Source: Gilliamella sp. App4-10
Lineage (GTDB): Bacteria; Pseudomonadota; Gammaproteobacteria; Enterobacterales; Orbaceae
Reading direction: 5' to 3'
Assembly (NCBI RefSeq): GCF_001690495.1
Contig: NZ_LZGS01000002.1
Coordinates: forward strand, 1 to 64,000
DNA: 64,000 nt
The notes under the pieces were generated by a model. It searched no databases. It saw only the letters and a list, made by a program, of their open reading frames with translations, and had not been told where the DNA came from. This document shows positions 3,204 to 60,045 of this stretch, piece by piece. The translations under genes and the position numbers were made by a program. Within the stretch, counting starts at the first letter, position 1; every line of letters starts with the position of its first letter.

Positions 3204-4163
3204 ATGAATCAATATGCACTTGTCACCGATATTGGTGGAACCAATGCCCGATTTGCACTTTATAATTTAGGGACTAATGAGCTATCGGCGATCACAAAAG
3301 TGCTTATCGCAAAAGATGATGTATTGTTAACATTAATCAAAGATTACTTACATACCCAATCTGTTATCGTTAAAACGGCTTGTATTGCCATTGCTTGCCC
3401 GGTTGATGACGAAGATGTTATTAGTATGACAAACAATAATTTGTCGTTTTCACGGTCTGAATTGATTAAGGTACTTGGGCTTGATAAACTAGAGGTGATT
3501 AATGATTTTACTGCAGTATCAACCTCAATTCCTAAATTACCTAAACAAGATCTTGTTCAAATTGGTGGTGGTGAACCCAATTTAGATTATCCAATTGCAA
3601 TTTTTGGCGCTGGTACGGGACTTGGTGTGTCACATTTAATAAAAGTTAATCAACGTTGGATTAGCTTGCCAGGTGAGGGAGGCCATACCGAGCTTCCGAT
3701 GACAAGTGATGATGAAGATCTTATTTTAGTACAACTACGCAAAAAATTTGGACGTGTTTCTAGCGAGCGGTTTTTATCAGGTAATGGTATTGTTAATATT
3801 TATCAGGCCCTGTTACAAATTAATAATCAACCAGTAGAAGAAATTACGCCTGACATGATTGTTAAGAAAGCTTTATCACGAAGTTGCCCACTTTGCTTGC
3901 AAACTTTAACTTATTTTTGTACTTTTATGGGGCGTTTTGGTGGTAATTTGGCTTTAACACTTAACACGCAAGGCGGCGTTTATATTGCTGGTGGTATTGT
4001 ACCGCGTTTTATTGAGTTTTTTAAAAATTCTCCATTTAGAAAGGCTTTTGAACACAAAGGTCGTATGTCATATTTAGTCAAAAAAATTCCCGTTTATGTA
4101 ATAACACATGAAGATCCAGGCTTGTTTGGAGCAGGTGTTTATTTACAAAATTGTCTTAAATAA
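3204..4163 (+). CDS. glk: Glucokinase
   Basis: Phosphorylates glucose to glucose-6-phosphate, feeding glycolysis from non-PTS glucose (for example sugar released by glycosidases). The 319-residue product (E. coli 321) shows the phosphate-binding motif DIGGTNARF near its N-terminus and GEGGHTELP in the sugar-binding region, typical of the proteobacterial (non-ROK) family. I chose the ATG at 3204, preceded by AAGGAAAT, over an in-frame TTG at 3165. The extra 13 residues would be Lys/Asn-rich and unlike the family. Upstream, 3004-3203 is non-coding. Confidence 0.95.
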   Translation: MNQYALVTDIGGTNARFALYNLGTNELSAITKVLIAKDDVLLTLIKDYLHTQSVIVKTACIAIACPVDDEDVISMTNNNLSFSRSELIKVLGLDKLEVINDFTAVSTSIPKLPKQDLVQIGGGEPNLDYPIAIFGAGTGLGVSHLIKVNQRWISLPGEGGHTELPMTSDDEDLILVQLRKKFGRVSSERFLSGNGIVNIYQALLQINNQPVEEITPDMIVKKALSRSCPLCLQTLTYFCTFMGRFGGNLALTLNTQGGVYIAGGIVPRFIEFFKNSPFRKAFEHKGRMSYLVKKIPVYVITHEDPGLFGAGVYLQNCLK

Positions 4164-4188
4164 TATTGATGAGTAAAGGTTTTATTCT

Positions 4189-4437
4189 ATGATGTGGTGT
4201 TATATTTACCGAAGTACCAAAAAAGAGAACTGCTATTTGTATATGGAAAATGAAAATGATTTTTCAACGATTCCTGACAAAATAATATCTATTTTTGGGG
4301 CTCCTATTTTTGTCATGAAAGTGTTGCTTGATGGCAAAAGAAAATTTGTGGTCGGTACCGCTAATGAAATAGAAGAAAAAATTAAGGCCGATGGATTTTT
4401 TTTACAAATGTTAAACGAAGATGATTTCAAAGTATGA
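4189..4437 (+). CDS. ycgL: YcgL family protein
   Basis: Small cytoplasmic protein of the YcgL family, function unknown. The 82 residues show the family pattern: an opening [18 protein letters not shown], a middle [16 protein letters not shown] and a GFFLQM tail. It is shorter than E. coli YcgL (about 108) but covers the whole domain. The start is either of two adjacent ATGs (4189 or 4192). Its stop overlaps the start of the next gene by 4 bases (ATGA), so the two are translationally coupled, as ycgL-ycgN also neighbour each other in E. coli. Confidence 0.85.
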
Positions 4438-4856
4438 TTGAGCCATTTTGGGAATCTAAAACATTAGATCAAATGAACGATGATGAGTGGGAACAACTTT
4501 GTGATGGTTGTGGACAGTGTTGCTTAAATAAATTAATGGATGAAGATACCGAAGAAATATTATACACCAATGTAGCTTGTAATTTGCTTGACTCTAATAC
4601 TTGTCAGTGTAAGCATTATTATAATCGCTTTGATTATGAACCTGATTGTATCAAGTTGACACGTGATAATCTTCTTACCATTGAATGGTTACCTGTAACT
4701 TGTACTTATCGTTATTTTTCTGAAACAGGGCAATTGCCACATTGGCATCCGCTGATTACAGGTAATAAGAAACTTATGCATAAGCTGAAAATTTCGGTTA
4801 AAAACCGGATTGTCTATGAGAAAGATGTTATTTATTGGGAAAACCATATTATCTAA
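4434..4856 (+). CDS. ycgN: YcgN family cysteine-cluster protein
   Basis: The 140-residue product belongs to the YcgN/UPF0260 (CxxCxxCC zinc/iron-chelating) family. The cluster is seen as [13 protein letters not shown], with further cysteines downstream ([22 protein letters not shown]). The role is unknown; the cysteine spacing suggests metal binding. It overlaps ycgL by 4 bases and is co-transcribed with it. A hairpin directly after the stop (4861-4876) probably ends the transcript. Confidence 0.88.
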
Positions 4857-40859: not shown

Positions 40860-40958
40860 CCCGTGTTCTCAACGGGGTGCCTAGATGGGCTGAGAATGTT
40901 AGATAGGCTAACATAACCCGTCGAACCTGAACTGGATCATGCCAGCGGAGGGATTTGA
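40860..40958 (+). promoter_or_regulatory. TPP (thi-box) riboswitch
   Basis: The conserved THI element is complete in order: CAACGGGGTGCC, GGGCTGAGA, a variable arm GTTAGATAGGCTAAC, ACCCGTCGAACCTGA and CTGGATCATGCCAGCGGAGGGA. It senses thiamine diphosphate and lowers expression of the thiBPQ operon 52 bases downstream. A short hairpin TTTGAG...CTCAAA (40954-40977) followed by T-rich sequence may be part of the expression platform. Confidence 0.95.
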
Positions 40959-41010
40959 GTTATTGTACTTGCTCAAACCTTTTGTCTTTTATTGCTGTTT
41001 TGGAGGCAAA

Positions 41011-51728: not shown

Positions 51729-54700
51729 TTAAATTTTACCACCACCCCCTTTAAATTTTTCAACCAATGCGGCGATTTTTTCAAAAACACGGTTCTTTTT
51801 AATTAAATATTGAGGATTAAGTGGACTCATTTTAGGTAGAATCTCGTTCAGCTCTGTACCATTTTCAGTTGCATACTCTCGCTTTAACGACGAGGCGATA
51901 TAGCGTTTTGTGGCGGCTTCGTTTAAATTTTCTTCTTCTATTAAGGTATTCACTTCGACCTGCAACTCCTGCTGTGCATATAAGAAAAATGCATCAATAA
52001 TCGAGGCTTTATCTGGAATAGCGTCAAGATCGGTTTGTTTTATAAATTCGACAACTAGCTCCTCTTTAGCGCGATTTTCTAAACTTGATCGAATTAATCG
52101 CTGAGCATCTTCGACAATGTCTTGTTTGGTTTTTTCTTGCTTATTTTGTTCATAAATTAGCTCAAGAATATAATCCAGATTGATCTCTTGTGATTTTAAT
52201 AGATCAATTTCGAAAACCACATCATCCCAGTCAAATCTTTGCTGATCTTGTTGATTGGCTTCTTTTTCTCGGCGTAGCCAATCACGAATATCATTATAAG
52301 TTGAACGATAATTTTGAATTGCGCGATCAGTCGGTAGCTTAACTGCGTGCATTTTTTGCAGATCTTCATCAGTCACATAATGCTTGTTTTTAAATGCTAA
52401 AACCGCTTGCTCATCAGTCATATCTAATTGTTGGAAATCTTTTAATGCCACAAATTCATCATAATTTTGCAACACATTGTCAGTACGCAAATACTCGCCA
52501 AATAATTTAACAAACGCTTTTTTATCTTGGTCGGTAATAATTTCGTCAGGACGTGGGAATTTGTCTTGCAATTCGGCAACGATAGCTAAATAGCCATGGT
52601 GCAATTCACCTGAACTTTTATCAGTAAAACCTTCCATGTATTCCTTAAAGCTTTTTTCTAACACCACTTCATGAGTATTGCTTTTACCAAATGTTTTTAT
52701 TGCATCAATGGTAGCTTGTTCTAAATCACGGAACGCCACAATATTACCAAAGGTTTTAGTGGCATTATAGATACGATTGGTGCGTGAAAAAGCTTGAATT
52801 AACCCATGATATCGCAGGTTTTTATCGACAAATAACGTATTGAGCGTTGGCGCATCAAAGCCAGTTAAGAACATGCCAACGACAATTAATAGATCGACTT
52901 CTTGATTTTTGACTTTGAAAGACAGATCGCGATAATAGTTTTGAAATTGATCACTACTGACATCAAAGTTAGTTTTAAATATTTTATTATAATCTGCTAT
53001 CGCAGCAGCTAAAAACTCTTTAGCACTTTGATTTAAGGCATCGGTTTCAAAACTTTCATCGGCAAAATTACCCTGTGCATCTTGTTCTTCATTGGCAGAA
53101 TAAGAAAATATGGTGGCTATTTTTAATGGCTGATTGGCATTTTTTTGTAATTTTTTGAATGATTCATAATAGAGTTTAGCCGCATCGACACTACTTACAG
53201 CAAACATGGCATTAAACCCTTTACTTTTGCCCATTAAGCGGTGGGTTTTTTGTTTAAAATTATTCAAAATATATTGTGTGATTTGCTCAATACGATTTGG
53301 GTGGAGCAGTGCTTTTTTATTTTCAGCAGCGCTAAGTTTTTCGAGATCTTGTTCTTGCTCTATCGATTTAAAATTAGGGCGCACATCATTATAGTCAACT
53401 TTAAATTTTAGTACCTTTTCGTCACGAATGGCATCGGTTAATACATAAGCGTGTAGTTCACGACCAAAAACATCTGCCGTGGTTTGCGTCCCTATTGCGT
53501 TAGTATGCATAATCGGCGTGCCAGTAAAACCAAATTGGTAATACTTTTTAAATTTACGCTTTAAGTTTTTTTGAGCTTCACCAAACTGAGAGCGATGCGC
53601 TTCGTCAAAAATAAATACCACATGTTTATCATAGATTGCCAAACTATCGTCGCTTTTCATTAAATTATTAAGTTTTTGAATGGTAGTAACAATAATTTTA
53701 TTATCGGTTTTCTCAATATTGCGTTTAAGCCCAGCGGTACTATTTGAGCCATTGACACTATCTTTTGAAAATTTTTGATACTCTTTCATGGTTTGATAAT
53801 CCAGATCTTTACGATCCACCACAAAAAAGACTTTATCAATAAATTCCAGTTCAGTGGCTAACCGCGCCGTTTTAAAACTGGTTAATGTTTTGCCTGATCC
53901 TGTTGTGTGCCAAATAAAACCGCCACTTTGTAAGCTACTCCACTTTTTGGCATGATAAGCGCTAATGATTTGCCACAATATACGCTCGGTGGCGGCGATC
54001 TGGTAAGGGCGCATAATTAACAATGTGTCATTTACATCAAGCACCGAATAAGTCAGTAACACATTTAACAGCGTTCGGCTGGCAAAAAAGGTGGCAGTAA
54101 AGTCTTTTAGATCTTTTATCGGCTCGTTTTTAACATTGGCCCAATTCATTGTAAAATCAAAGCTGTTTTTATCGCGCTTAGTGGTGTTAGCAAAATAGCG
54201 CGTGTCAGTACCATTTGAGATAACAAACAGTTGTAAATATTTAAACAGTGAATTATCTTGATTAAAACTCTCTTTACTATAGCGATGCACTTGGTTAAAG
54301 GCTTCACGAATGGCAATACCCCGCTTTTTTAGTTCAACTTGAACAAGGGGCAAGCCATTCACTAAAATCGTCACATCATAACGATTTGCATAATTGCCAG
54401 TTTGCTGGAATTGACGGATAACTTGTAATTTATTATTGGTGACATCTTTTTTATCTAACAGCTTGATATTTTGGATATGACCATCATCAAAAACAAAATC
54501 ATAAATATGATCGTGGTGGATTTTGCGACTTTTATCGATCATCGATTCATTGGGTTTATCTAAATACTCTAATACAAAACGTCGCCATTCATCATCAGTA
54601 AATTGCATTTTGTTCAGTGTTTGCAATTGCTCGCGAATATTGGCTAATAACTTTGCATGCGTGTTTAAATTAGGTAAATATTCATAGCCTTGTCGATTTA

Positions 54701-54830
54701 AATCATGAATAAATTCGTTTTCTAAATCCGTTTCAGTCTGATAAACAGCTGCTGTCTCTTCTAGCTTGTTGTAGTTATCTAAAATAATGTAGCTATTGGT
54801 TTCGGCAATTGGTTTTGTATAAGTTGTCAT
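51729..54830 (-). CDS. hsdR: Type I restriction endonuclease, HsdR
   Basis: Motor and nuclease subunit of the type I enzyme. 1033 residues, close to EcoR124I HsdR (about 1040). The N-terminal PD-(D/E)xK nuclease has [21 protein letters not shown]. The SF2 motor has Walker [18 protein letters not shown]-type [19 protein letters not shown], and the later helicase motif with [16 protein letters not shown] helical C-terminal domain assembles with HsdM2S. Last gene of the hsdM-hsdS-prrC-hsdR operon, 12 bases after prrC. Confidence 0.96.
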
Positions 54831-54842
54831 AGTCTATTCCAG

Positions 54843-55943
54843 CTATTTAAAATGATAATTTTCGAGTAAATGATTCAGTAAAAAGGCAACAGTTTGCTTT
54901 TCAGGTTCAGAAGGTTCGGAAACCATTTCATTAGATAAGGTTAAATGGCTGGTAAAATTGATAATCCGTGTTAAGTAAAGTTTTTTATCGCCAGGCAATA
55001 AGTCTGACCATTGCGGATAGCCTAAAAAACTGGCGGTTTTTTCATATAAGTTACGTAATAGGGTAAAATGATATTTTTCAATTTTATTTTCCTTAACCGC
55101 TTCTTGCAGCAACTGTTTTAAATAAAGATGATAGGAAAAACTACGGTTTGAATCGCCTTTTTTCTCTTCTAATGCAAATTTACCGTCCTCAAATCGTCTT
55201 AAAATATAACTATCTTTTGAAGTTAATGCATTATAAAGCACATTATAAAACAGCGGGTTATGGGTCGTAATAATAAATTTAATGTCAGATTCACAGGATG
55301 TGATTAATTGGGCAATATCTACCGCCAACTGGATAAGGTGATTTTCGTCCAATGAACTAACGGGGTCATCAATAAAAATATAGCGTAAATGGTCAAATTC
55401 ATTAGTCGAGCGTTCGCTTTTGTCAGTAATATTGCGCTCAGCGATAACTAAGTTAATCAGTGTAAAAAAAATACTCCAAATTAAATTGTTTTCTTCGCCT
55501 TTGGAGATTTTAATATTATCAATACGCTGATCATTATCGCCTGCTAGCGAAAAAGTAATAGCAGAAAAATCCTCGTTGAAATGTGGCAGTAATCTTTGGT
55601 GAGTATAGGATTGAAAGTAACGAACAATATTTTGGTCTTGTCCTTGGTCTTTTAAAATCCAGTCAGTAAATGAGTTAGGTTGAATGATTAATTGATGTTC
55701 ACCCTCTTGGTGTTTATCATTATCCCAAGCAAATAGATCTTCAGTGAATGCATTATAGTAAAGAATTTTATGCCGCGTTAAAGCGGCGTTATTTTCTTTA
55801 TCATCTTTCCCTTGCGACACAATAAAATTTTTAAATGCTTGGGATAAACGCGTTTTACCTGTACCGTTAAAAGCATAAATTAATTGTGTTTTTTTATTGT
55901 TTTTATCCAATTGTTCAGCAATATTCCTTAGCGATTTATTCAT
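54843..55943 (-). CDS. prrC: PrrC-type anticodon nuclease embedded in the hsd operon
   Basis: 366 residues. N-terminal ABC-like NTPase: Walker A YAFNGTGKTRL (about 24-32), a signature-like SKGEENNLIW, Walker B YIFIDDPVSSLDENH and switch His FIITTHNPLF. The C-terminal part has Arg297 and Glu301 (TLLRNLYEKTASFLG) and His333 (INFTSHLTL). The R+4E and R+36H spacing equals the Arg320-Glu324-His356 catalytic triad described for E. coli PrrC. The location also matches: between hsdS and hsdR of a type IC-like system. PrrC is kept silent by the restriction complex and cleaves tRNA-Lys at the anticodon when a phage peptide (T4 Stp) disables restriction. Target and trigger here are inferred. Confidence 0.9.
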   Translation of the reverse strand: MNKSLRNIAEQLDKNNKKTQLIYAFNGTGKTRLSQAFKNFIVSQGKDDKENNAALTRHKILYYNAFTEDLFAWDNDKHQEGEHQLIIQPNSFTDWILKDQGQDQNIVRYFQSYTHQRLLPHFNEDFSAITFSLAGDNDQRIDNIKISKGEENNLIWSIFFTLINLVIAERNITDKSERSTNEFDHLRYIFIDDPVSSLDENHLIQLAVDIAQLITSCESDIKFIITTHNPLFYNVLYNALTSKDSYILRRFEDGKFALEEKKGDSNRSFSYHLYLKQLLQEAVKENKIEKYHFTLLRNLYEKTASFLGYPQWSDLLPGDKKLYLTRIINFTSHLTLSNEMVSEPSEPEKQTVAFLLNHLLENYHFK

Positions 55944-55963: not shown

Positions 55964-57193
55964 TTATTCTTTGTCCTTAGGAAAATCTAATAATAAATTG
56001 CGATAATATTCATATTGTTTTTGGCGTAATGCAATCTCACGCGGTAAACCCTCGGTGATTGAGTTGGTAAGCGCATCGAATTTATCTAAGATTTCGACAA
56101 TACGGGCTTGTTCCTTGAGAGGGGGAATGGGGATTATAATTTTTGACATATCAGTTGCTGAAACATCTATAACTTTTGTCCCTTTTGCATATTTTCTTTT
56201 CTCACTTGCAAACATTGATGTTTGAGTAAAATATGTAAAATATTTGCCTAAAATACTATTGTTTGGCTTGAAGATTGTTGCATGTCCCCCAGTAACAGCC
56301 TGTTTTTTTCCTAAATAGACTAAGGCTTTACCAACATCTTCAAGATTCTCACTGGTATTTGTTATAACAACATCGCCAAAATCAACTTTTTTTAATTTTT
56401 TTGCTAATTCAGCTGAAACAAATGATTTAGTTTCAGTAGCAAAAGTTCCATAGTAAGTATAAATTTGTCCATAATGAATAGCTGGCACACCTGTTTCGGT
56501 AAAGTCTTTTTTTTGTAATCCATTACCACGAATTAATTGACCGACTTCCCCTAATGTTTTCCACTCAACCTCATCCTCTTTAAAGGTCAACAATTTATCT
56601 CGATAATAGTTGTATTGTTTTTTCCGTGTAGTAAGCTCTGCTGTGAGCTCTGCTGTGAGGGCTGTGAATGAGTCTAAAATACGGACGATTTCGGTTTGAA
56701 CGTGTAGAGGAGGGATGGGGATTAAATATTGCTTTAATTTATTTATTCCGATTATACCTAATCCTCCATTTTTATTTGCATTATTCGCACACCATTTTCC
56801 AAAATCATAAAAGCAGTAAAAAAGAAATTTAATTCTAACTCTATTTAAATAAGATTCTTTTAATGAAAAACTAGTTATTTGTTGATTTGTTAAATATGGT
56901 ACTAGAATCAATGCGTGTTCACCTAAAGTAGCTGTTGTAGACATTAATAGTGAATTAGCAGGAATAAGTTTTCCCTTTACTGCTGATGTCGATATATGTT
57001 GTATAGAATCAGTAAGAATTCTTCCATTTTCGCGGATATCTTCCATTCTAAACCAAGGAATATTACCATTTCTCCAATATTCTTCTTTTGCTTTACTTGG
57101 GGTATAGCCATTTTTTAAAGTAAAAATATCCTCAATAGTTTTCCATTCCACAGCAGAATTCTTAAGTAGTTTTTTCATAATGCTAGAGTTCAT
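55964..57193 (-). CDS. hsdS: Type I restriction-modification specificity subunit, HsdS
   Basis: Recognises the bipartite DNA target. 409 residues: target-recognition domain 1 ([19 protein letters not shown] onward), a central conserved helix ([19 protein letters not shown] then [17 protein letters not shown]), domain 2 ([19 protein letters not shown]) and a distal conserved helix ([12 protein letters not shown] to [16 protein letters not shown]). The TAEL TAEL stretch is encoded by a 12-bp tandem repeat (56633-56656), as in the EcoR124/EcoDXXI type IC group. The start ATG overlaps the hsdM stop by 4 bases (ATGA). prrC follows after 20 bases. Confidence 0.95.
56633..56665 (-). repeat. 12-bp tandem repeats encoding TAEL in hsdS
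   Basis: Two near-identical 12-base units (plus-strand GCTCTGCTGT core, 56633-56644 and 56645-56656), with a degenerate 9-base partial unit at 56657-56665. On the coding strand each unit reads ACAGCAGAGCT plus one base, giving Thr-Ala-Glu-Leu. The partial unit gives Thr-Ala-Leu. Confidence 0.9.
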
Positions 57194-58755
57194 CCCTCAA
57201 TCTCCGCCACAATTGCATCGATTTGGCAACGTAAGCTATCAATTTTAGCTACCGTATCTTTTATTTCGGCATTAAGCTGGGTGATATCAATCACTTCACG
57301 GGTATCTTCGGCTTCAACATACGAACTGACTGATAGATTATAGTCATTTTGCGCAATGGTTTGATTATCAACTGATTTAGCAAAATATTCGATATCTTGC
57401 TTGCTATCAAATACTTGCATAATTTCTTGAATATGTTCATCAGTGAGCACATTATTATTGGTCTCTTTTTTAAACAGTTTACTGGCATCAATAAATTGTG
57501 TCTTTTTGACGGTTTTATTTTTGGCTAGCACCAAAATATTAACCGCAATTGATGTTCCATAAAATAAATTTGGTGCCAGTGAGATTACGGTTTCAACAAA
57601 ATCATTATCGACCAAATATTTGCGAATTTTTTGTTCCGCACCACCACGATAAAATATCCCTGGAAAGGTAACAATCGCGGCTCGCCCACACTCGGACAGG
57701 TAACTTAATGCATGCATAATAAAGGCAAAATCGGCTTTCGATTTTGGTGCTAGCACGCCAGCGGGCGCATATCGGTCATCATTAATTAAGGTTGGATCAT
57801 CACTGCCAATCCATTTAATTGAATAGGGTGGATTAGAAACGATTGCATCAAATGGTTTTTCGTCGCCAAACTTTGGATTAAGTAACGTGTCGCCTAAAGC
57901 AATTTCGAATTTATCATAGTTGATATTGTGTAAAAACATATTCATTCGAGCAAGGTTATAGGTGGTATGATTAATCTCTTGACCGAAAAATCCATCCTCA
58001 ATGATATGTTCATCAAACTGTTTTTTCGCTTGTAACAATAAAGAACCCGAACCTGCCGCTGGGTCATAGATTTTATTGACCTTTGTTTGATTATGTAAGG
58101 CTAATTGTGAGATTAGTTTCGATACATTCGGTGGTGTAAAAAATTCACCACCAGATTTACCGGCATTCGAGGCATAATTAGAGATCAAAAACTCATAAGC
58201 ATCGCCAAACAGATCGATTTGATTGTCGGCAAAATCACCAAAATCCAGTTCGGCAACACCATTAAGTACTGCCGCTAACCGTTTGTTTTTATCGGCAACA
58301 GTATTACCTAATCGGTTACTGGTGGTATCAAAATCGGCAAATAATCCTTTAATATCGCTTTCTGACGGGTAACCATTAGCTGAGCTTTCAATTGCATTAA
58401 AAATATTGGCCAAATCAGTATTTAAACTTGAATTGGTATTGGCTTGAGCTACAATTTTACAAAATAATTGGCTAGGATAAATAAAATAGCCTTTGGTTTT
58501 TATTGCGTCTTTTTTAATTTCATCGGTAATGACATCGTCGGATAAAGTGCTGTAATCGATACCTTCTTCACCACCTTCAATATAATTAGCGAAATTTTCA
58601 CTAATAAAGCGATAAAACAAAGAACCAAGTACATACTGTTTAAAATCCCAACCATCGACCGCACCACGGACTTCGTCGGCAATTTTCCATATTTGGCGTT
58701 GTAGTTGATCGCGTTGTTGCGTTCCGGACATTGATTGGGTGTTATTAGAAGTCAT
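57190..58755 (-). CDS. hsdM: Type I restriction-modification methyltransferase, HsdM
   Basis: N6-adenine methyltransferase subunit. 521 residues: N-terminal HsdM helical domain (about 1-160, starting with [20 protein letters not shown]), the SAM motif [15 protein letters not shown] and catalytic motif [12 protein letters not shown]. Length is close to EcoR124I HsdM (520). First gene of the operon, preceded by AGGAATTTTGAAAAT. Methylates host DNA and forms the core of the nuclease with HsdS and HsdR. Confidence 0.96.
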
Positions 58756-59222: not shown

Positions 59223-59355
59223 AACCCTTTTTTTTTGCCATATTTTAAAAATAAATAAAATCAAATAATTAAAAACTCACCGCAAAAAAGGGTTTTTAAA
59301 ACCTAAATAGCTATTTGCCTTTTTACATACAATATTGATAGTATATTAGCTTCTA
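59223..59355 (+). promoter_or_regulatory. CRISPR leader
   Basis: AT-rich 130 bases directly before the first repeat, with an inverted pair: AACCCTTTTTTTTTGC (59223-59238) and GCAAAAAAGGGTT (59282-59294). Leader placement is supported by the degenerate terminal repeat at the opposite end of the array. Expected to hold the array promoter and adaptation signals. Confidence 0.6.
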
Positions 59356-60045
59356 GTTCACTGCCGTGTAGGCAGTTTAGAAAATCTGATAGTCAAATAA
59401 ACAATTGGAGAAAAAGTTCACTGCCGTGTAGGCAGTTTAGAAATTCAGAAGTTTTAGAAATTAGCAATAAAAATGGTTCACTGCCGTGTAGGCAGTTTAG
59501 AAATATCTTTTTACCGGAGGAAGTTGATGAATATCGTTCACTGCCGTGTAGGCAGTTTAGAAAGTCTAGGCGGTTATTATTTTTTGAGCGTCATTGTTCA
59601 CTGCCGTGTAGGCAGTTTAGAAAAATAGTAACACACTGCGTATACTAATAGTAACGTTCACTGCCGTGTAGGCAGTTTAGAAAGTATTTCGCACTAGAAC
59701 TCGTGGACGAGTTTTGTTCACTGCCGTGTAGGCAGTTTAGAAATAGGTGTCCAAACGTCTTTATGTCTAGCCGTCGTTCACTGCCGTGTAGGCAGTTTAG
59801 AAATTCAGTTAACTCACAGTACTCATCTCAACATTGTTCACTGCCGTGTAGGCAGTTTAGAAATTGGAGTAGTGACAACGATTTAGGATCGAAAGGTTCA
59901 CTGCCGTGTAGGCAGTTTAGAAAAAAATGGTTATACTCAAAATTATATAATGATTTAGTTCACTGCCGTGTAGGCAGTTTAGAAATGATACCCGAAAAAA
60001 AATTCCTGATACCCGATGTTCACTGCCGTATAGGCAGTTTTAATT
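59356..60045 (+). CRISPR. Type I-F CRISPR array, 12 repeats and 11 spacers, no adjacent cas genes
   Basis: 28-base repeats start at 59356, 59416, 59476, 59536, 59596, 59656, 59716, 59776, 59836, 59896, 59958 and 60018. Each begins GTTCA and has the hairpin CTGCCGTGTAGGCAG, then TTTAGAAA, the type I-F pattern recognised by Cas6f (Csy4). Spacers are 32 bases except the tenth (34). The first 11 repeats are identical. The last is degenerate (GTATAG in the loop and an altered 3' end), which marks the leader-distal end. No cas1, cas2-3 or csy genes lie in the window, so processing must rely on genes elsewhere, or the array is an orphan. Confidence 0.97.

Follow-up and report, generated by a model that had tools for sequence, protein, structure and literature searches.

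A predicted PrrC anticodon nuclease gene in a type IC-like restriction-modification operon of Gilliamella sp. App4-10, and its relatives in bee-gut bacteria

The gene located between hsdS and hsdR in a 64,000-nucleotide (nt) stretch of Gilliamella sp. App4-10 (contig NZ_LZGS01000002.1, positions 1 to 64,000; hereafter the window) raises two questions: whether it encodes a true PrrC anticodon nuclease or a nuclease that merely resembles one, and, if a PrrC, which tRNA it would cut. A preliminary description made from the sequence had proposed a PrrC guarding a type I restriction-modification (R-M) system. In the analysis reported here, the gene at 54843-55943 was found very probably to be a true PrrC in a type IC-like R-M operon, which by analogy with E. 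coli would be silenced by the R-M enzyme and would cut tRNA-Lys. It appears to be an intact further member of an already known family, placed in the canonical operon of that family, and on this main point the preliminary description was correct.

Identity of the gene between hsdS and hsdR

The protein matched the PADLOC PrrC model (PDLC02360) with an E value of 2.6e-140 and 465.7 bits, the next best model scoring 43.7 bits, and protein residues 3-366 were aligned with model positions 19-347 of 372. Against the PrrC of 396 amino acids (aa) encoded on an E. coli plasmid (locus L070), identity was 59.8% over 388 columns, and residues D287, R320, E324 and H356 of that protein aligned with D264, R297, E301 and H333 of the window protein at a constant offset of 23. 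The four E. coli residue numbers are the published ones (PMC2610378, PMC3014915). Identity with the E. coli protein was 9/11 in the tRNA-recognition stretch, 50/67 over residues 272-338 and 158/258 in the nucleoside triphosphatase (NTPase) part. In an alignment of 42 PrrC proteins, which includes 24 from viral contigs and among these the distant L051 and L052 (37% and 32% identity with the window protein), the triad R297/E301/H333 was invariant (42/42). The preliminary description had named these three residues and their E. coli counterparts correctly, and this correspondence stands; its reliance on their spacing does not, as the R(+4)E(+36)H pattern was obtained in 615 of 20000 shuffles of the window protein. 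Spacing alone is therefore weak evidence, and the alignment was used for the PrrC identity instead. AAA_13 was the sole Pfam match, no NCBIfam model matched, and no sequence relative was found in the PDB either at E 1 with the single sequence or at E 0.01 with a 34-row profile. When 72,556 plasmid records were searched with the window protein by tblastn, 113 matched, 106 of them over at least 80% of the query.

The reading frame is intact, with an ATG start and no internal stops, and the same span on the plus strand is full of stops. The coordinates first proposed were exact, and the strand, which had not been named, is minus. The gene and the motifs of its product are as follows:

54843..55943, minus strand: prrC, predicted anticodon nuclease, 366 aa
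55851..55871, minus strand: Walker A, FNGTGKT, residues 25-31; K30 and T31 invariant in 42/42
55731..55760, minus strand: block YYNAFTEDLF, residues 62-71, strongly conserved in the alignment
55488..55508, minus strand: ABC signature, ISKGEEN, residues 146-152, from sequence and alignment
55347..55376, minus strand: Walker B and D-loop, FIDDPVSSLD, residues 190-199, from sequence and alignment
55254..55268, minus strand: switch histidine, TTHNP, residues 226-230; H228 invariant in 42/42
55131..55163, minus strand: tRNA-recognition stretch, KKGDSNRSFSY, residues 261-271, equivalent to E. coli 284-294
55041..55055, minus strand: R297-x3-E301, two of the three triad residues, in a predicted helix (290-307), from alignment and model
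54945..54968, minus strand: R326-x6-H333, a HEPN-type R-x4-6-H motif ending in the catalytic His; R326 in 41/42, H333 in 42/42
54942..54944, minus strand: codon TTA for L334; Ser in 37/42, N, R, G and G in four others, Leu in the window protein only

The set of ATP-binding cassette (ABC) ATPase motifs is thus full, as expected from the ABC-like NTPase of the preliminary description, and its members are kept in the alignment with E. coli PrrC. The YYNAFTEDLF block is perhaps the core of what has been published as the 'PrrC box', a 15-residue element of the N-domain. D264, the equivalent of E. coli D287, is Asp in 36/42 proteins.

Structure prediction, which had been proposed as a check, gave a Rad50-like ATPase head for the N-domain and a C-domain model resembling HEPN RNases in a VIA-align comparison. 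The loop of the catalytic His had a predicted local distance difference test score (pLDDT) below 50, hence the triad geometry could not be read from the model. In a Foldseek search with the whole model, PtuA of the Septu system (8eea_D) ranked first, which would suit a RloC or PtuA/OLD-type ABC nuclease that only resembles PrrC. The gap between the PrrC model and the next PADLOC model argues against such a protein, as do the E. coli-type recognition stretch and, in the comparison with RloC, the lack of a CxxC motif among 366 aa containing one Cys, so that there is no zinc hook; we give this explanation almost no weight.

A scan of genome contigs recovered 11 close PrrC relatives from bee-gut bacteria: seven from Gilliamella (87-96% identity), one from Apibacter mensalis (89%) and three from Snodgrassella (80-82%). 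The ratio of nonsynonymous to synonymous substitution rates (dN/dS) of the window prrC against these 11 was 0.085-0.156, that of hsdM and hsdR being 0.030-0.143, and the values indicate that prrC is under purifying selection.

The operon, its chromosomal slot and relatives without prrC

The genes around prrC and the adjacent context are:

57190..58755, minus strand: hsdM, type I DNA methyltransferase subunit, 521 aa (TIGR00497, E 7.5e-196; N6_Mtase; motifs)
55964..57193, minus strand: hsdS, specificity subunit, 409 aa, with two target-recognition domains (Methylase_S in two stretches; PADLOC Specificity_I)
56633..56656, minus strand: TAEL-TAEL central repeats in HsdS, residues 180-187, with a repeat number that varies among relatives
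51729..54830, minus strand: hsdR, type I restriction subunit, 1033 aa, with EcoR124_C at the C-terminus (TIGR00348, 4.3e-194; EcoR124_C, 5.5e-65)
59342..60040, plus strand: array of clustered regularly interspaced short palindromic repeats (CRISPR), 12 repeats with a period of ~60 nt, beside the cassette and outside the operon

The order hsdM-hsdS-prrC-hsdR, which had been described as that of the E. coli system, was confirmed from the coordinates, all four genes lying on the minus strand. The hsdM and hsdS genes share 4 nt, while 20 nt separate hsdS from prrC and 12 nt separate prrC from hsdR; because these intervals are short, the four genes probably form one transcription unit. A scan for promoter-like sites (28, against 32.5 in shuffles) and terminator-like sites (8, against 4.8) is given for completeness, and no conclusion rests on either count. 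Helicase and methyltransferase motifs were detected in HsdR and HsdM. The EcoR124-type C-terminal domain of HsdR and the TAEL repeats of HsdS are both present, and we take them to mark a type IC system, assuming EcoR124 to be the type IC prototype. The R-M operon therefore reads as type IC-like, with hsdM, hsdS and hsdR apparently intact.

The cassette occupies a defined chromosomal slot. Beyond hsdM, similarity between the window and each of the seven named Gilliamella relatives extends into the CRISPR region (in G. bombicola at the CRISPR edges only); beyond hsdR, it reaches into a GntR-type gene in six of the seven, all except G. intestini (L014). That GntR-type gene was present in 30/35 Gilliamella genomes, 22 of which have no prrC. 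Among 14 of these 22 prrC-less loci that were compared, one (L057) stops at a contig end, nine had no cassette match by blastn, three carry hsdR fragments (genomes G003, G019 and G002) and one (G001) has hsdM, hsdS and hsdR without prrC. The hsdR fragments on the GntR side (L054, L055 and L056, in three prrC-less Gilliamella genomes) point to past loss. Full-length hsdR of the window type (at least 68% identity) was found in 11/35 Gilliamella genomes and was accompanied by prrC in 8/11, the gene being missing in G001, G026 and G027. A PrrC-tail-like relic noted by eye in the hsdS-hsdR spacer of G001 was rejected, as 251 of 300 Markov shuffles scored equal or better; at that locus, a gain of prrC by one lineage is therefore indistinguishable from a loss by the other. 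Operons of the same kind with hsdM-hsdS-hsdR and no prrC lie at L061, L068 and L069 in three Gilliamella genomes, L061 in the same chromosomal slot.

HsdS was compared with that of six of the 11 relatives (all but L014, L015, L016, L019 and L021). Identity to the window protein was 15-63% over residues 1-150 and 17-64% over residues 216-355, and 78-88% and 87-98% in the central and C-terminal parts, from which it is evident that the target-recognition domains differ among the six. The number of TAEL repeats, two in the window, is one or three in these relatives; changes of this kind alter target spacing in EcoR124 enzymes. The other five loci have an extra open reading frame (ORF) between hsdM and hsdS. 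In L014 (G. intestini, 3798-4802) and L016 (Apibacter mensalis, 3759-4763) this is a RhuM-family gene (PF13310; E 5.8e-92 and 5.2e-92), and in L015, L019 and L021 it is an ORF of 65-67 aa without a Pfam match that by eye shares the C-terminal end of RhuM, the start of RhuM also being recognizable in L019 and L021.

In the CRISPR array, 11 of the 12 repeats reach the Rfam threshold for CRISPR-DR4. Cas1 matches in this genome are on contigs C35 and C1, with none on the window's contig, C2. Elsewhere in the window, a thiamine pyrophosphate (TPP) riboswitch aptamer was detected at 40863-40971 on the plus strand with 77.7 bits.

Distribution and transfer among bee-gut bacteria

PrrC was found in 8/35 Gilliamella genomes, the window genome counted, and in 6/14 Snodgrassella genomes. 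Among 295 genomes drawn from the order of Gilliamella it was present in 20, seven of them Gilliamella and none from other genera of the family. The insect-gut-type host that had been inferred from the letters is thus in agreement with Gilliamella and with the occurrence of relatives in bee-gut bacteria, where prrC and the R-M genes are found together in two phyla.

In Apibacter and Snodgrassella, only the block from hsdR to hsdM resembles the window at the DNA level. The guanine-plus-cytosine (GC) fraction of the Apibacter cassette is 0.363, against 0.287 and 0.296 in its flanks, and two Snodgrassella cassettes have 0.371 and 0.374 against 0.41-0.45; in G. bombicola the cassette (0.348) is in line with its flanks (0.346 and 0.338). 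In the HsdM tree, Apibacter falls in a clade with L014 and L015 (support 100), and in the HsdR tree it falls inside the Gilliamella sequences (support 93); in the PrrC tree it joins L015 on weak support (82 in the quick and 73/82 in the careful analysis). The Snodgrassella sequences form a separate clade beside those of Gilliamella and Apibacter. Together, the GC contrast and the trees suggest transfer of the cassette, the likely direction being from Gilliamella into Apibacter. For Snodgrassella, the contrast in GC with the flanks shows that the cassette was imported, and the donor is less clear than for Apibacter.

Transfer of the R-M system to Apibacter has already been published: according to Kwong et al. 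(PMC5913662), an R-M system of A. mensalis R-53146 and one of G. apicola are 97% identical at the protein level, and a recent transfer was proposed. PrrC is not mentioned there, the words 'PrrC' and 'anticodon' being absent from the main texts of PMC5913662 and PMC9239279. A literature search linking PrrC with bee-gut bacteria found nothing, which does not prove that no such report exists. Where the papers give the host of a carrier, that host was a bumblebee: B. lapidarius for Apibacter (PMC5913662), B. pensylvanicus, B. appositus and B. pascuorum for the three Snodgrassella strains (a table in PMC9239279), and bumblebees for G. intestini, G. bombicola and G. bombi (a reference title in PMC9598484). 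The statement does not extend to four named Gilliamella strains, to the other Snodgrassella carriers or to the window genome; neither PMC11325843 nor PMC9598484 names a host for strains App6-5, Choc5-1, Pas-s25 and Lep-s35 in its main text.

Presumed action, target and place among known systems

By analogy with E. coli PrrC, as outlined in PMC2610378 and PMC3014915, the R-M complex on DNA would hold the nuclease silent until a phage factor inhibits restriction and PrrC is released. It would then cut tRNA-Lys 5' of the wobble base, translation would stop, and the phage would be aborted together with the cell. This would amount to the two-layer defence predicted in the preliminary description. 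Two sets of observations bear on this reading. The first concerns the allele itself: Leu replaces Ser beside the catalytic His (S334L, in the window protein only), and Ala stands at position 239, where Glu is found in 40/42 PrrCs and Ala otherwise in L047. Judged from the alignment, these changes may be neutral or weakening. A PrrC by descent that is weakened or inactive, its gene being on the way out, would also fit the prrC-less R-M operons in 3/11 Gilliamella genomes with full-length hsdR and the hsdR fragments in the same slot. The intact frame, the retained motifs and triad, a dN/dS of about 0.1 and the occurrence of N, R or G at the S334 position in four other PrrCs speak against decay, which we consider improbable.

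The second set concerns the tRNA. Among the loci compared, the window genome has two tRNA-Lys(UUU) genes and one tRNA-Lys(CUU) gene. Eight tRNA-Lys(UUU) genes of Gilliamella and Snodgrassella, from four genomes, are identical over 76 nt; this identity between members of different classes (L076, L073 and L074) may reflect ordinary conservation. Their loop, CUUUUAA, is that of E. coli, but two additional G-C pairs are present in their anticodon stem. The folding energy of the anticodon 17-mer was the same, -0.4 kcal/mol, for E. coli UUU and Gilliamella CUU, whose anticodon stems are identical, and was -1.4 for Apibacter UUU and -4.2 for Gilliamella and Snodgrassella UUU. A PF05430 protein, from what we take to be the MnmC-type methyltransferase family, was found in 2/2 Gilliamella genomes and in Apibacter and in 0/2 of the Snodgrassella genomes searched, and PF03054 (MnmA) was found in 5/5 genomes. 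For E. coli PrrC, according to PMC3014915, a stable stem inhibits the enzyme, cleavage suffers severely when either of the wobble modifications is missing, and there is strong support from data for a contact between Asp287 and the modified base. Because the stem of the host tRNA-Lys(UUU) differs in stability, the presumed tRNA-Lys target is less certain than first proposed.

These features would suit a working PrrC with a target other than that of E. coli, for example tRNA-Lys(CUU) or a stable-stem, differently modified tRNA-Lys(UUU), an explanation that overlaps with the tRNA-Lys-cutting PrrC preferred here. Set against it are the recognition stretch, nearly identical to that of E. coli with D264 at the place of D287, the identical loop, and the lysine codons of six local genes (220 AAA against 31 AAG), which make the UUU tRNA the effective one to cut; we regard an altered target as unlikely, although the least unlikely of the alternatives. 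By analogy, the target is most likely still a tRNA-Lys, and either isoacceptor is possible. A wider and rather speculative proposal, to which we attach slightly less credence than to an altered target as such, is that this PrrC lineage moved as a sealed defence cassette between bacteria of two phyla that share bumblebee guts, and that it acts on forms of tRNA-Lys to which the E. coli enzyme would be poorly suited (a stable stem and, in Snodgrassella, probably no MnmC-type wobble modification); it would then have had to adjust its recognition or to take another target, possibly tRNA-Lys(CUU).

As an example of layered anti-phage defence, PrrC has entered the textbooks; the substrate rules given in PMC3014915 were derived from the E. 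coli enzyme. The present relatives, 80-96% identical, occur in hosts with a different tRNA-Lys stem and, probably, wobble modification, beside prrC-less sister operons and exchanged HsdS domains, and therefore form a natural set for examining the recognition rules of PrrC and the contribution of prrC to restriction. It is in this set, and not in a new kind of system, that the value of the locus lies. Within the 42-protein alignment, 30 PrrCs are of the E. coli recognition type (GDSN-like, with 31-34 residues from the triad Glu to the His), 10 are of a second type (DSPF-like, 35 residues) and two of neither. Plasmid cassettes of E. coli (L005) and Klebsiella (L010) have HsdM proteins 95.4% and HsdR proteins 88.4% identical, and PrrCs that are 57.5% identical and of different recognition type; a tree uniting these two PrrCs was rejected by the approximately unbiased test (p-AU 0.03), a value that is optimistic because the pair was picked after the trees were known. 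Near-identical HsdM with divergent PrrCs suggests that one R-M enzyme can be combined with different nucleases. Variation of the recognition sequence among PrrCs, and a possible variation of their substrates, have already been noted in the review PMC3014915.

Among known systems, the closest model is E. coli PrrC with EcoprrI (type IC), for which L070 served as the comparison: gene order, triad and D287 equivalents, ABC motifs and the type I partner are shared. The window PrrC is 30 residues shorter than that of L070 (the difference being made up of an N-terminal insert of 16 residues, two short gaps and the tail at the C-terminus), and its gene is 12 nt from hsdR, whereas the two genes overlap in L070 and L005. 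HEPN-MNT toxins are not known to have a fused ABC ATPase, and they have another partner. RloC, as described in PMC2610378, is similar in combining an ABC ATPase with an R-x3-E...H nuclease; it differs from the window PrrC in its coiled coil and zinc hook and in being rarely linked to type I R-M. The hsd-prrC cassettes of Gilliamella, Apibacter mensalis and Snodgrassella consist of the same four genes as the window, and differ from it in the HsdS target-recognition domains of the six relatives compared and in the RhuM-family gene or 65-67 aa ORF carried by the five others.
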